Positions 7,708 to 25,150 of a stretch of 33,157 nt of DNA are shown piece by piece. The translations under genes were made by a program, and so were the position numbers. The notes below the pieces were generated by a model that worked only from the letters and a program-made list of their open reading frames with translations, had not been told where the DNA came from and made no database searches. This stretch comes from an uncultured Clostridia bacterium (GTDB taxonomy: Bacteria; Bacillota; Clostridia; Oscillospirales; Oscillospiraceae). Location: positions 1 through 33,157 of the forward strand of contig CAMNKQ010000005.1 in NCBI GenBank assembly GCA_946542465.1. The letters are read 5' to 3'. The stretch's first letter is position 1, and every line of letters begins with the position of its first letter.

Positions 7708-9429
7708 GTGAGCGGGATGGCAGTTACCGGATATAAAACCATGGACAAGAAGTCAGAGGACACCAATCAGATCTTCAAGGGCTTCCCGGACATCAATGCA
7801 GATGCCTGTACCCGGGAGACCAACAAGCTCTTCACTCCATATCTCTTTTTCCACTGGGTGCGCGGCCACAAGGAGATTGAGCTCTGGAGCAGCTGTTGTA
7901 ATCATCACGGCTCTATGCCGAATCCGCCTCGAACGGTTACGACAAAGGAAAAGATGATCCTATACGGCACGCATAACAGCGAGGCGATATGCCCATGGTG
8001 CGGCCAAACCGTCACGCTGAAAGAGTCGGGAAGGCTGGGAAAGAGGAAGAATCTCCTTGAGCACCACCCGGTGGTGATCCTGAAGGCCAGCAGAGGCAAG
8101 CTGTATGCCCGAGCCTATTGGGCAAGGAAAGACTATCAGGGAGAGCTGAACGCAATGCCGACGTTCTTTCTTGTAGGTGCCTATTGTTTTCAGAAGGGCA
8201 GCGCAGATCAAATCACACCGAACTGGTGGCGAGACGGCTACCACAAACAACACCTGGAAGGCAATTATGATCCAAACCATAGAGTAATCACTGAACCGTT
8301 CACCGAAGACTCATGCTGCGGGTACCGCTTTCCCTATACTGTCCTCGGGCTTGAAGAGATCGCAAAGAGCGATTTCAGATATTGCCAGTATGAGGCATTT
8401 GAAAAAAAGACTCCGGACGCGTTGAGGTGGGATCTGATAAAGTATCTGGCCGCGGCATCCATTTATCCGGCTCAGATCGAGATGCTGATGAAGTCCGGAT
8501 TTGATGAGATGGTGGTGGATCTGGTTTGCCGTCGGCGCAAGAACAGCAAAGTCATAAACTGGAGCGAGACGGACTACCTGAAAGCATTCGGACTCAATAA
8601 GCAGGAGATGCGTGAGTGGAGAGAGTCCGGATGCAGTTACGAATTGATCGGAGAATACAAAATGCTCCGAAATCGGAAGCTGACTACCAGCTTCCGGGAT
8701 CTGCATGAATTCAAAGAAGCCTTCGGATATCACACTGAAAAAGTCCTGCAGAGCTGCCGAAAATGGAAGGTGAAGCCCATAAAGCTGGGGCGGTACCTAA
8801 GCAAGTTCTGCGGCGGATGCCCGGCAGGTAGTCGTGACATCCTCGCCGCTTGGGAGCATTGGAAGGACTATGTGGACATGGCGAAAACTCTGGGCTGGGA
8901 TCTGAAGGAAGAGACGGTCCTGCTGCCGGTGGATTTGTACAGTCGGCACGACGAAGCCGCCCAGGAGCTGGCCCTGCGTAACGCCAGGGAGCAGGCTGCC
9001 AACCTGAAACAGGAGCGGGAGCTGGGACTCATTACCGTCCGAGCCAGGGTAGAGAAATACAACTTTGAAATGGGGGACTATTTTATTCGCGTAGCCGAGT
9101 GCGCCAGTGAAATCAGCCTGGAGGGGAAAACGCTGGAGCACTGTGTGGGCGGATATGCCGAGCGGCACATGGCCGGGAAAACCACGATCCTTTTCCTACG
9201 CAGGAAAGCGGCTCCCGACGCTTCCCTTTATACGATCGAGATGGATGGGAACATCCTTCGCCAAATCCATGGCTGGCGTAATGAAAGGAACGGCGCGCCA
9301 GATCCGAGAAAGACCATGGCGTGGATGCTCGATCCATGGCTGGACTGGCTAAAAAAGGGATCTCCAAGAAACAAAGACGGCAGTCCGAAGATGCCTAAGA
9401 AGAAAGAAAAGGAGAGCACTGCTGCATGA
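7708..9429 (+). CDS. PcfJ-like protein (573 aa)
   Basis: C-terminal LEHCVGGYAERHMAGKTTILFLRRKAAPDASLYTIEMDGNILRQIHGWRNERNGAPD is typical of PcfJ-like proteins; N-terminal CPWCGQ zinc-binding segment. Confidence 0.8.
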   Translation: MSGMAVTGYKTMDKKSEDTNQIFKGFPDINADACTRETNKLFTPYLFFHWVRGHKEIELWSSCCNHHGSMPNPPRTVTTKEKMILYGTHNSEAICPWCGQTVTLKESGRLGKRKNLLEHHPVVILKASRGKLYARAYWARKDYQGELNAMPTFFLVGAYCFQKGSADQITPNWWRDGYHKQHLEGNYDPNHRVITEPFTEDSCCGYRFPYTVLGLEEIAKSDFRYCQYEAFEKKTPDALRWDLIKYLAAASIYPAQIEMLMKSGFDEMVVDLVCRRRKNSKVINWSETDYLKAFGLNKQEMREWRESGCSYELIGEYKMLRNRKLTTSFRDLHEFKEAFGYHTEKVLQSCRKWKVKPIKLGRYLSKFCGGCPAGSRDILAAWEHWKDYVDMAKTLGWDLKEETVLLPVDLYSRHDEAAQELALRNAREQAANLKQERELGLITVRARVEKYNFEMGDYFIRVAECASEISLEGKTLEHCVGGYAERHMAGKTTILFLRRKAAPDASLYTIEMDGNILRQIHGWRNERNGAPDPRKTMAWMLDPWLDWLKKGSPRNKDGSPKMPKKKEKESTAA

Positions 9430-10526
9430 ATGAGCTGATGACAACGAACACAAAAGAACTGAGCCCAGAGCAGCTGGGCGGGGAGATCCGGCTGCTGACA
9501 CAGCAGGCGAGGCGCATGGCGCTGAGCTATGGTATCCAGATCGGGTACCGCCTGCACATCGCGCATGAGAAGGTCGGGCCGCACGGATGGGCGGAATGGC
9601 TGAAGAAGGAAACGGATTTCTCCGCGGCCTCGGCCTCCCGATTCGAGTCTCTCTATGAGGGCTACGGCGAGGATCAGGGGAACCTCTTCGGTGTGGGTAA
9701 TAAATTTCCAACGTTGGAAAATCTCAGTATTTCCAACGCTTTGAAGCTCCTTGCCGTGCCTGAGGAGGAGCGGGAGGAGTTCGCCACGGAGGTCGGCGCC
9801 GAGTTGCTTTCGGCGCGGGAGCTTGAGAAGGCGATCGCCGAGAAAAAGGCCGCCGAGGAGCGGGCGGAAACCCTTGAGCGGGAGCGGGATTCGGCAAGGA
9901 AAGAGCTCCAGACGGCAACCACGCGGCTGGAGGACACACAAAAGGCGCTTGTTCACTCTATGGAAACCGAAGGTGAGCTGACACGCAAGCTCTCCCAGGC
10001 CAAAAAAGACGTGCTGAAAGCCGATGAAATGGCCGAGAAGAATGAAAGAGAGTTGAAAGCCCGCATCCATGAGCTTGAGACACGCCCACAGCCCGTCGCC
10101 GTCGAGCGGGACGAGAAGGCCATCGAGGAGGCCGTGCAGGCCGCCAGAGCGAAGGCGGAGGCGGAAGCCGCCGAGAAGATCGGCGCCCTGAAGAAGAAGC
10201 TGGAGAAGGCAGAGAATGCCCGGGACAAGCTCAAGGACGCCGCAGACAAGGCCGAGGCCGGCGCTGCAGAGAAGATCGCGGCGGCGGAGAAGGAAACGGA
10301 GAAGGCACGCCAGGAGCTGGAGGCGGCGAAAAAGGAATTGAAGGCCTCAAACGGCAAGGTTGCCGCCTTCGGCGTCTATTTCAAAAGTGTGCAGGAGAAT
10401 GTAAACAGCATGATGGAGAAAGTGCGGGAGATCGGGGAGGAAGACCCGGAGACCGCCAGGAAGCTGTGCGGCGCTGCCCGCGTGATTCTCAACAAGGCCA
10501 TAGAAAGACTTGGAACGGAGGTATAA
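9426..10526 (+). CDS. DUF3102-like protein with long coiled coil
   Basis: LGGEIRLLTQQARRMALSYGIQIGYRLHIAHEKVGPHGWAEWLKKETDFSAASASRFESLYEGYGEDQGNLF followed by about 200 aa of E/K/A-rich coiled coil. Confidence 0.75.
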   Translation: MNELMTTNTKELSPEQLGGEIRLLTQQARRMALSYGIQIGYRLHIAHEKVGPHGWAEWLKKETDFSAASASRFESLYEGYGEDQGNLFGVGNKFPTLENLSISNALKLLAVPEEEREEFATEVGAELLSARELEKAIAEKKAAEERAETLERERDSARKELQTATTRLEDTQKALVHSMETEGELTRKLSQAKKDVLKADEMAEKNERELKARIHELETRPQPVAVERDEKAIEEAVQAARAKAEAEAAEKIGALKKKLEKAENARDKLKDAADKAEAGAAEKIAAAEKETEKARQELEAAKKELKASNGKVAAFGVYFKSVQENVNSMMEKVREIGEEDPETARKLCGAARVILNKAIERLGTEV

Positions 10527-22106: not shown

Positions 22107-22790
22107 ATGCCTCAGTTTAACCTTAAACACCTCCGCGCCGGTAAGTACAACAACAATAACGGCGCGGTCAGCTATTCTGACGCCGTCAAGATCGGCGACG
22201 CCATGAACGTCAACCTGGAGCTCCGCTTCGCCGAAGCACGGCTGTACGCCGAGGGCCGCCTGGCCGAGTACCTGCGCGAGGCAAGCGGCGGTACCGCTTC
22301 GATGGGCGTCAAGTATATCCTCGCTGCGGCTCAGACGCTGATGTTTGGCGTGCGCTCCCATACGCGCACGGTCAACAGCAAGGAGATCCCGTCCACGCAG
22401 TTTGGCGGGAATGATACCGGCTCCTATGTAGGCGTCTCGTTTTACGCCGACGACATGATCGACGGCGTCAAGAAGTACACCTGCGCTCTCGTGACCAAGG
22501 CGCGGTTTTCTTACCCCGCCATCACCCGCCGCACGAAGGGCGAGAACATCGAGTTCCAGACGCCGACCACGACCGGCGAATTTCTGCCAGATGATTCGAG
22601 CGATCTCAATCTGATCGAGGTTGCCGTCTGCGATACCGAGGACGACGCTGCTGCATGGTGCGATCTGGTGGTTAACTACACGGAGGAGGGCGGCACTCAG
22701 GCGAACACCAATCAGGAGGGCGGCACTCAGGCGAACACCAATCAGGAGGGCGGCGCTCAAGCGAACACCAATCAGGAGGGCGGCGCATGA
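22107..22790 (+). CDS. Major tail protein with C-terminal tandem repeats
   Basis: Position, 227 aa; ...GDAMNVNLELRFAEARLYAEGRLAEYLREASGGTASMGVKYI...; C-term (EGGTQANTNQ)x3. Confidence 0.85.
   Translation: MPQFNLKHLRAGKYNNNNGAVSYSDAVKIGDAMNVNLELRFAEARLYAEGRLAEYLREASGGTASMGVKYILAAAQTLMFGVRSHTRTVNSKEIPSTQFGGNDTGSYVGVSFYADDMIDGVKKYTCALVTKARFSYPAITRRTKGENIEFQTPTTTGEFLPDDSSDLNLIEVAVCDTEDDAAAWCDLVVNYTEEGGTQANTNQEGGTQANTNQEGGAQANTNQEGGA
22686..22790 (+). repeat. In-frame 30-bp tandem repeat, 3 copies + partial
   Basis: gagggcggcactcaggcgaacaccaatcag at 22686-22715, 22716-22745, variant 22746-22775, partial 22776-22787. Confidence 0.95.
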
Positions 22791-23137
22791 TTCGTCTGGA
22801 AGAAAAGCAGATTGAGCTGGACGGCAAGCGCTACACCCTGCGCTGCAATATGGCGGTACTGGAGGAGGTGGAGGAGGCCCACGGCGACATGGAGGCCGTC
22901 ATGGCCCTTACCGTGCGCCAGTCCTCAGTGGAATTCCTGGCTGCCATGCTGAACGATGACGCGCAGCAGCGGGGCCTGGATGTGGTATGGACGCCGGAAG
23001 CGCTCAAGCGCAAACTCTCCTATGCCATGCTGAAGGAACTTGACATTATGGGTATGGTATTTCGCGCGATTTCCCCCGCCGGCGCGGCTGAGCCTCAGCG
23101 TGAAGCGGAAGCCGCGCACGAAGACTCGGGAAACTGA
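22787..23137 (+). CDS. Tail assembly chaperone (gpG-like)
   Basis: 116 aa between major tail protein and tape measure; MIRLEEKQIELDGKRYTLRCNMAVLEEVEEAHGDMEAVMAL...; stop at 23135-23137 immediately follows slippery G_GGA_AAC. Confidence 0.85.
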   Translation: MIRLEEKQIELDGKRYTLRCNMAVLEEVEEAHGDMEAVMALTVRQSSVEFLAAMLNDDAQQRGLDVVWTPEALKRKLSYAMLKELDIMGMVFRAISPAGAAEPQREAEAAHEDSGN

Positions 23138-23340
23138 ACGAGCGGGCGAAGATCGACTTCGCCCGCTATCTCTCTATCTGGATGTTTGATTTGCACATGG
23201 AAGAGCAGATCTTCTGGAAAACGATGAACCCAGCCAGGCTGCACGCGTTGTACAGCGCATATTTTTTGCCTGCGCGCACCCAGGCGGCTCCTGAGCCGCA
23301 GAAGGCCGTCAGCCTGAGCGAATACCTCAGAGGAGGTTAA
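22787..23340 (+). CDS. Frameshifted tail assembly chaperone (gpGT-like), via -1 PRF at 23128-23134
   Basis: -1 frame from 23134 encodes LNERAKIDFARYLSIWMFDLHMEEQIFWKTMNPARLHALYSAYFLPARTQAAPEPQKAVSLSEYLRGG* with no own start/RBS; slippery heptamer + stem-loop. Confidence 0.85.
23128..23167 (+). promoter_or_regulatory. -1 programmed ribosomal frameshift signal
   Basis: GGGAAAC 23128-23134; 6-nt spacer; perfect 11-bp stem AGCGGGCGAAG(23141-23151)-ATCGA-CTTCGCCCGCT(23157-23167). Confidence 0.9.
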
Positions 23341-23341
23341 C

Positions 23342-25150
23342 ATGGCCACAAGGACTGTAAAAGCTCGCGTAGAGCTTGATGGTGAAGCACAATACAAGCA
23401 GGCGATGTCGGAACTGAGCAAGGGAAATGCTGTCCTTGGCTCTGAAATGCGCAAGCTGCAGGCTGAGTACAAGGGCAACAGCGAAAGCACCGAGTTCCTC
23501 ACCAAAAAGGGTGAGCTTCTCGAGCGCCAGCTTCTCCAGCAGAAAGACAAGGTCCAGACGCTGCGGGATGCGCTGGCCAACGCTGCGCAGCAGTACGGTG
23601 AAAGCTCCGATAAGACCCAGGACTGGCAGATCAAGCTGAACAATGCCGAAGCCGCCCAATACGACCTGGAGGCCGCGATCCGGGAGAACAACGATGCCCT
23701 GCAGGGCGAAAGTGATACTATGGTCGGCCTGGGCGATACCGTGGGTGATCTTGCTTCAAAGCTCGGTATCCAAATCCCGGATGGGGCAAAAAAAGCGCTC
23801 AATGGCATGCAAGGCTTATCAACCGGTACCGTAGCGGCTATGGGCGCGTCTGTGGCTGCTGTAGCCGCCCTCTATAAAGCTGTACAGCAACTTCATCAAA
23901 TGACGGTAGAGGCCGCAGCCAATGTCGACGAGATTCTCACGGAATCCATGACCTCGGGCTTGAGCACTCGCACGATCCAGCAGCTTAAGTATGCGGAAAA
24001 CCTGATTGATGTCTCCTACGGTACCATTACAGGAACATTGACCAAGCTCACCCGAAATATAGCAGAGGCGGACAGTGGAAACGCAGCGCTCGCCGAGAGC
24101 TTTGAGAATCTCGGCGCGTCCATATTGGACACCGACGGAAGCCTGCGCAGTGCGGAGGCTGTGTTTTATGACGTGATCGATGCGCTGGGAGGGATTGAAA
24201 ACACCACGCGGCGTGACGCTGCTGCAATGGAAATTCTGGGAAAGTCCGCGCAGGAGTTGAATCCTCTGATTATGCAGGGAAGTGCGGCTTTAAGGGATCT
24301 GGCTGCAGAAGCTGAAGCTACTGGATACGTCCTGGATGAGAGCCAGCTCAAAAAGCTTGGTGAAGTGGACGACGCCTATCAGGAGCTGCAGTTGCAGATT
24401 CAGGCAACGAAACAGCAGCTTGCTACTGAGTTTGCACCCGCCTCCAAGGAAGTCCTTGAAACTTTTGCAAAGCTCACTAAAGGAGCGGGAGACGCGCTGA
24501 CACAGTCCGGGCTTGTCAAGGGTGTGGGTGAGTTGGTGCAGTTCTCTTTGGCTCTTCTGCAACCACTGGGGGCGCTGCTTGGACTTGCCCCGGAGTTAAC
24601 ATCCGGCTTGCAGCCGCTTTATACAGTCCTTCACGCGATCGCTGGTGTTTTTGCCTGGATTGCCGACGTGGGGAATGCGGCGCTCGGTGTTCTTACCGGT
24701 TTTACTGCTGCAGGAAGGACGCGCTTTAATACTGCTTTAGGCTTAAATGCACAGTATGGGATGTATTCCAATCTGCAGCAATGGAATGGGACAGCGGCAC
24801 AGTATGAAGCCTGGCGCAATTCCTCGTATTCGGGAAGCCGAAACCCAAACTATGGTTATGATGCTGAAACTGGCCGCTATTATGACCGTGAGACCGGTAA
24901 TTATATCTACGGTTACAACGCCTCCGGCAACAGCAACTGGCGCGGCGGCATGACTTACCTGGCCGAAAACGGACCGGAGGCGGTATTTCTTCCAGCGGGC
25001 AGCCGGATCATGAACGCCCAGGAGACCAGGCAGGCCATGGGCGGCGACACCTTCTATATCACCATCGACCCAAAGAATGTGAAGGAATTCAACGATATTG
25101 TGGAGATTGCCCGCAGCGCCCGCGTGCTCTCACGCATGAAGGGAGGGTAA
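23342..25150 (+). CDS. Tape measure protein (602 aa)
   Basis: Coiled-coil N-term (YKQAMSELSKGNAVLGSEMRKLQAEY), hydrophobic centre, C-term MTYLAENGPEAVFLPAGSRIMNAQETR. Confidence 0.88.
   Translation: MATRTVKARVELDGEAQYKQAMSELSKGNAVLGSEMRKLQAEYKGNSESTEFLTKKGELLERQLLQQKDKVQTLRDALANAAQQYGESSDKTQDWQIKLNNAEAAQYDLEAAIRENNDALQGESDTMVGLGDTVGDLASKLGIQIPDGAKKALNGMQGLSTGTVAAMGASVAAVAALYKAVQQLHQMTVEAAANVDEILTESMTSGLSTRTIQQLKYAENLIDVSYGTITGTLTKLTRNIAEADSGNAALAESFENLGASILDTDGSLRSAEAVFYDVIDALGGIENTTRRDAAAMEILGKSAQELNPLIMQGSAALRDLAAEAEATGYVLDESQLKKLGEVDDAYQELQLQIQATKQQLATEFAPASKEVLETFAKLTKGAGDALTQSGLVKGVGELVQFSLALLQPLGALLGLAPELTSGLQPLYTVLHAIAGVFAWIADVGNAALGVLTGFTAAGRTRFNTALGLNAQYGMYSNLQQWNGTAAQYEAWRNSSYSGSRNPNYGYDAETGRYYDRETGNYIYGYNASGNSNWRGGMTYLAENGPEAVFLPAGSRIMNAQETRQAMGGDTFYITIDPKNVKEFNDIVEIARSARVLSRMKGG

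Follow-up and report, generated by a model that had tools for sequence, protein, structure and literature searches.

Does the short gene between the major tail protein and tape measure genes of this clostridial contig encode one protein or two? In the window, by which we mean the whole 33,157-nt stretch of DNA that was analysed, the frame that we call G ends at a stop codon directly behind a heptamer of the slippery type, and the original prediction was that a -1 programmed ribosomal frameshift at this point joins G to a downstream segment, T, to give an analogue of gpGT. In phage lambda, gpG and a minority product, gpGT, are made via -1 frameshifting, the tape measure being bound by G and the tail tube subunit by T (PMC5009743). 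The frameshift is a conserved property of the tail genes of dsDNA phages (Levin 1993; Xu, Hendrix and Duda 2004; reviewed in PMC5009743). On the sequence evidence set out below, we consider it very likely that the locus encodes the tail assembly chaperones of a siphophage-like (pro)phage, a pair of the G/GT type produced through -1 programmed ribosomal frameshifting, and it adds another case to a kind of frameshift that is already well known in phage tail genes.

Layout of the locus and the G protein

The arrangement of the predicted elements is given in Table 1. The slippery heptamer, with TGA right after it, proved correct to the base, and the coordinates of the 6-nt spacer, of the perfect 11-bp stem with its 5-nt loop, and of the -1 frame that stays open for 68 residues past the shift point all held.

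Table 1 Features of the candidate frameshift locus and its neighbours (positions in the window)
Feature	Coordinates	Strand	Basis
Major tail protein	22107..22790	+	phrog_88, E 6.1e-19; TIGR01603 just under cut-off
G, zero-frame tail assembly chaperone, 116 aa, ATG start, TGA stop	22787..23137	+	ORF; phrog_2115; fold matches
Slippery heptamer G_GGA_AAC, in phase with G	23128..23134	+	sequence; in-phase heptamer in 6/6 relatives
T segment, -1 frame, 68 aa + TAA stop	23134..23340	+	conserved protein, -1 frame of six relatives
6-nt spacer, TGA stop of G as its first bases	23135..23140	+	sequence; 6-7 nt in 7/7 loci
Stimulatory hairpin (putative), 11-bp stem, 5-nt loop	23141..23167	+	folding, relatives, covariation, recoding
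Tape measure protein	23342..25150	+	several tape measure PHROGs, e.g. phrog_8462, E 5e-32

Because the open reading frame of G ends TCG GGA AAC TGA, the heptamer lies in the X_XXY_YYZ phase. The -1 frame runs without a stop over 23104-23337 and ends at TAA (23338-23340), so the frames of G and T overlap by just ~33 nt. GGGAAAC by itself is not rare in the window (4 seen, 4.85 expected); among the 120 XXXYYYZ heptamers on both strands of the window, the one at 23128-23134 is the only one followed by a stem of at least 9 bp at a spacing of 5-8 nt.

PHROG matches in the window place a major tail protein upstream of G/T and a tape measure protein downstream. Where the major tail protein gene encodes the C-terminus, a 30-nt tandem repeat is present in three copies (22684-22784); each unit encodes 10 aa, about NQEGGTQANT, and the last copy reaches the start of G. 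Upstream of the structural genes, at 7708-10523, are genes for a PcfJ-like protein (PF14284) and then a DUF3102 protein, families that are associated with plasmids and other mobile elements.

Profile searches matched G to phrog_2115, annotated as a tail protein (E 3.3e-5), with the match spanning only the N-terminal half of the window protein; six of the seven G proteins considered here match this family (best E 1.5e-10). Against Pfam, G fell under the gathering cut-offs of both Phage_TAC_11 (15.6 vs 27.8 bits) and Phage_TAC_12 (13.2 vs 26.2 bits). We also modelled G with AlphaFold (mean pLDDT 83, from an alignment of only 4 sequences) and compared the model with the structures in BFVD, where the matches were named tail tube protein or tail assembly chaperone (E 8e-8 to 1e-3); N15 GT was among the weaker fold matches (E 0.066), and the comparison with PDB returned nothing significant. 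As modelled, the fold of G matches those of annotated phage tail assembly chaperones.

Conservation in six relatives

Six relatives were drawn from whole genomes, genome contigs and phage records, giving seven loci with the window: L005 (ONQJ01000001.1), L006 (CALXEH010000004.1), L007 (CALXCW010000028.1), L003 (G187), L021 (G1055), and L020, the human faecal phage MT836035.1. This phage was the one real relative recovered from the phage records with a GT fusion as query (K for N at the junction), and G alone as query had no match among 50,697 such records. Weaker T matches (L012, L013, L014, L016 and L022) were inspected and had no T-like frame in the right layout.

Identity to the window across the six relatives is 28-44% for G and 40-59% for T. 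In every one of them T is a conserved protein in the -1 frame of G, with an in-phase heptamer within the overlap and a stem 6-7 nt downstream; we also looked for homologs that encode T as an independent gene with its own ribosome-binding site and found none among the six. The heptamer is GGGAAAC in L005, AAAAAAC in L006, L007, L020 and L021, and AAAAAAA in L003. TGA adjoins it in the window, L005, L006 and L020, and the zero-frame stop lies 18 nt further on in L007 and L021 and 27 nt further on in L003, three loci in which the stem still starts 6 nt past the heptamer. The spacer measures 6 nt in six loci and 7 nt in L020, with stems of 9-11 bp and loops of 5-20 nt; the spacing between heptamer and stem is therefore constant, although the position of the zero-frame stop shifts among loci. 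This conserved layout, together with the synteny with major tail protein and tape measure genes, supports reading the product as a gpGT analogue.

T itself had no family match in profile searches that included Pfam and PHROGs. Its end (23325-23344) overlaps a purine-rich sequence, AGAGGAGG, ahead of the tape measure start at 23342, and the T segments of the relatives likewise end in two or three glycines. These conserved C-terminal glycines may reflect the AGAGGAGG site rather than the function of the protein.

A putative stimulatory hairpin

The arms AGCGGGCGAAG (23141-23151) and CTTCGCCCGCT (23157-23167) form 11 Watson-Crick pairs around the loop ATCGA. Folding of 23135-23175 gave a minimum free energy of -22.1 kcal/mol (z -4.8), which was equalled by none of 200 shuffles. 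The arms covary across the seven loci, with 74 of 77 positions paired. When arms were re-matched among loci, 74 pairs out of 77 were reached by one of the 5040 permutations, namely the true matching, in a test that ignores the kinship of the seven related loci.

Alternative explanations

The change of frame could be a sequencing or assembly error, or the mark of a decayed gene, such that G and T are truly one continuous frame. The contig analysed belongs to a draft assembly that is 68% complete and split into 159 contigs, but the same -1 offset and an in-phase heptamer recur in six independent, diverged loci, and the probability that we give to this explanation is close to nil. It is very unlikely, too, that T is expressed as a gene in its own right, with translation beginning internally through re-initiation or coupling past the stop of G: the ATG codons present in T at 23182, 23197 and 23224 have no Shine-Dalgarno sequence ahead of them on inspection of the window, their Met positions are not conserved, starting at them would lose the conserved IDFARYL part of the protein, and the slippery site and stem would be left unexplained. 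The same observations bear out the earlier claim that T lacks a start of its own.

A further explanation accepts that the heptamer promotes frameshifting and takes the hairpin for a by-product of the T protein sequence with no stimulatory role. Random synonymous recodings of T speak for it to a degree, in that they yield 8-10 of the 11 pairs by chance and reach the full pair number in 2.5-14% of cases; the T protein motif is partly self-complementary, so pairs arise by chance and the pair count is weak evidence for the stem. The folding energy is stronger evidence for selection on the stem than the pair count, and it points the other way: among 2000 recodings for each locus, the observed energy was reached by 2 for the window, 8 for L005, 72 for L006, 8 for L007, 20 for L020 and 2 for L021, that is, by at most 1% in five of the six loci tested and by 3.6% in L006. 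In addition, the stem arms covary, and the 6-7-nt spacing is kept where the 5' arm encodes other residues and where loops vary from 5 to 20 nt. We therefore judge the by-product explanation unlikely. What argues for programmed frameshifting, as read from the sequences, is the combination of heptamer, phase, spacing, covarying stem, conserved -1-frame protein and synteny.

The GAGCGGG motif

The original prediction also called unusual a copy of GAGCGGG at the base of the hairpin. There is indeed a copy starting at 23140, one of 40 in the window, and a functional link to the hairpin is unsupported. All 40 copies are on the + strand and none is on the - strand, against 8.5 expected over both; they lie between 225 and 32845, are spread over the three coordinate phases as 18/13/9, and make GAGCGGG both the commonest and the most strand-skewed heptamer of the window. 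We rejected the link since the motif is spread along the window and the corresponding place differs in relatives (AAGCGGG in L005, ACCAGGC in L006). As the commonest heptamer of the window, and one not conserved there in relatives, GAGCGGG at the stem base looks coincidental, a chance overlap with a strand-polar motif.

Across 400 kb of the same draft genome its density is 4.2 per 10 kb, against 12.1 in the window, and the strands are mixed. We compared its polarity in L045 and L046 (G187:C8), L050 (MT836035.1) and L043/L044 (G197:C4). One relative's contig is also polar (29 vs 1, favouring the tail-gene strand), as is MT836035.1 (8 vs 0), but another relative, with a single copy in 40 kb, does not show this; the polarity varies among relatives and is perhaps host-dependent. 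GAGCGGG contains AGCGG, which we take to be the Chi site of Bacillus AddAB, and the motif may act in a Chi-like or some other strand-polar way. As a side observation, this motif with its strand polarity is the more curious finding; the frameshift site itself opens no new question.

Comparison with known systems and implications

Under the proposed mechanism, most ribosomes would stop at TGA 23135 and release G, and a minority would pause on meeting the hairpin, when GGA occupies the P site and AAC the A site. These paused ribosomes would slip one base back onto GGG AAA and resume at CTG 23134, yielding a GT protein of about 184 aa. By analogy with lambda, G would lie along the tape measure, the T part would recruit the tail tube protein, and the ratio of G to GT would be important for assembly.

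The lambda heptamer is G_GGA_AAG. The window resembles lambda in its position between tail tube and tape measure genes, in the -1 offset, in an X_XXY_YYZ heptamer near the end of G, and in a T without a start; unlike lambda, its heptamer ends in C, TGA adjoins it, and a strong, conserved stem lies 6 nt downstream. Also in contrast to lambda gpG/gpGT, its T has no detectable sequence similarity to known families; among PHROGs, phrog_2115 matches six of the seven G proteins and none covers T. A different likeness is to the haloarchaeal viruses HCTV-1 and HCTV-2, whose g-t genes are recorded with G_GGA_AAC and A_AAA_AAC (PMC5009743), the two heptamers of most of our seven loci; these viruses have archaeal hosts, and the comparison covers the heptamers.

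In E. coli, a final C has been reported to make a heptamer less shifty than a final G (PMC5009743; PMC4066793), which may be why the strong stem has been kept. AAC-ending heptamers are found in six of the seven loci, with TGA directly 3' in four, a spacer fixed at 6-7 nt and a strong stem. A tentative reading, which we think more doubtful than probable, is that this clostridial phage family uses 'eukaryote-type' AAC-ending heptamers and that its frameshifting relies mainly on the hairpin and slow termination; if true, the family would contrast with E. coli systems that rely on a shifty AAG codon. For uncultured clostridial phages, the locus is a clean and conserved instance of predicted frameshifting in a tail chaperone gene, with a T segment that has no family in the databases searched. 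The seven sites, with their covarying stem and constant spacing, can aid annotation and the modelling of frameshift stimulators in bacteria.
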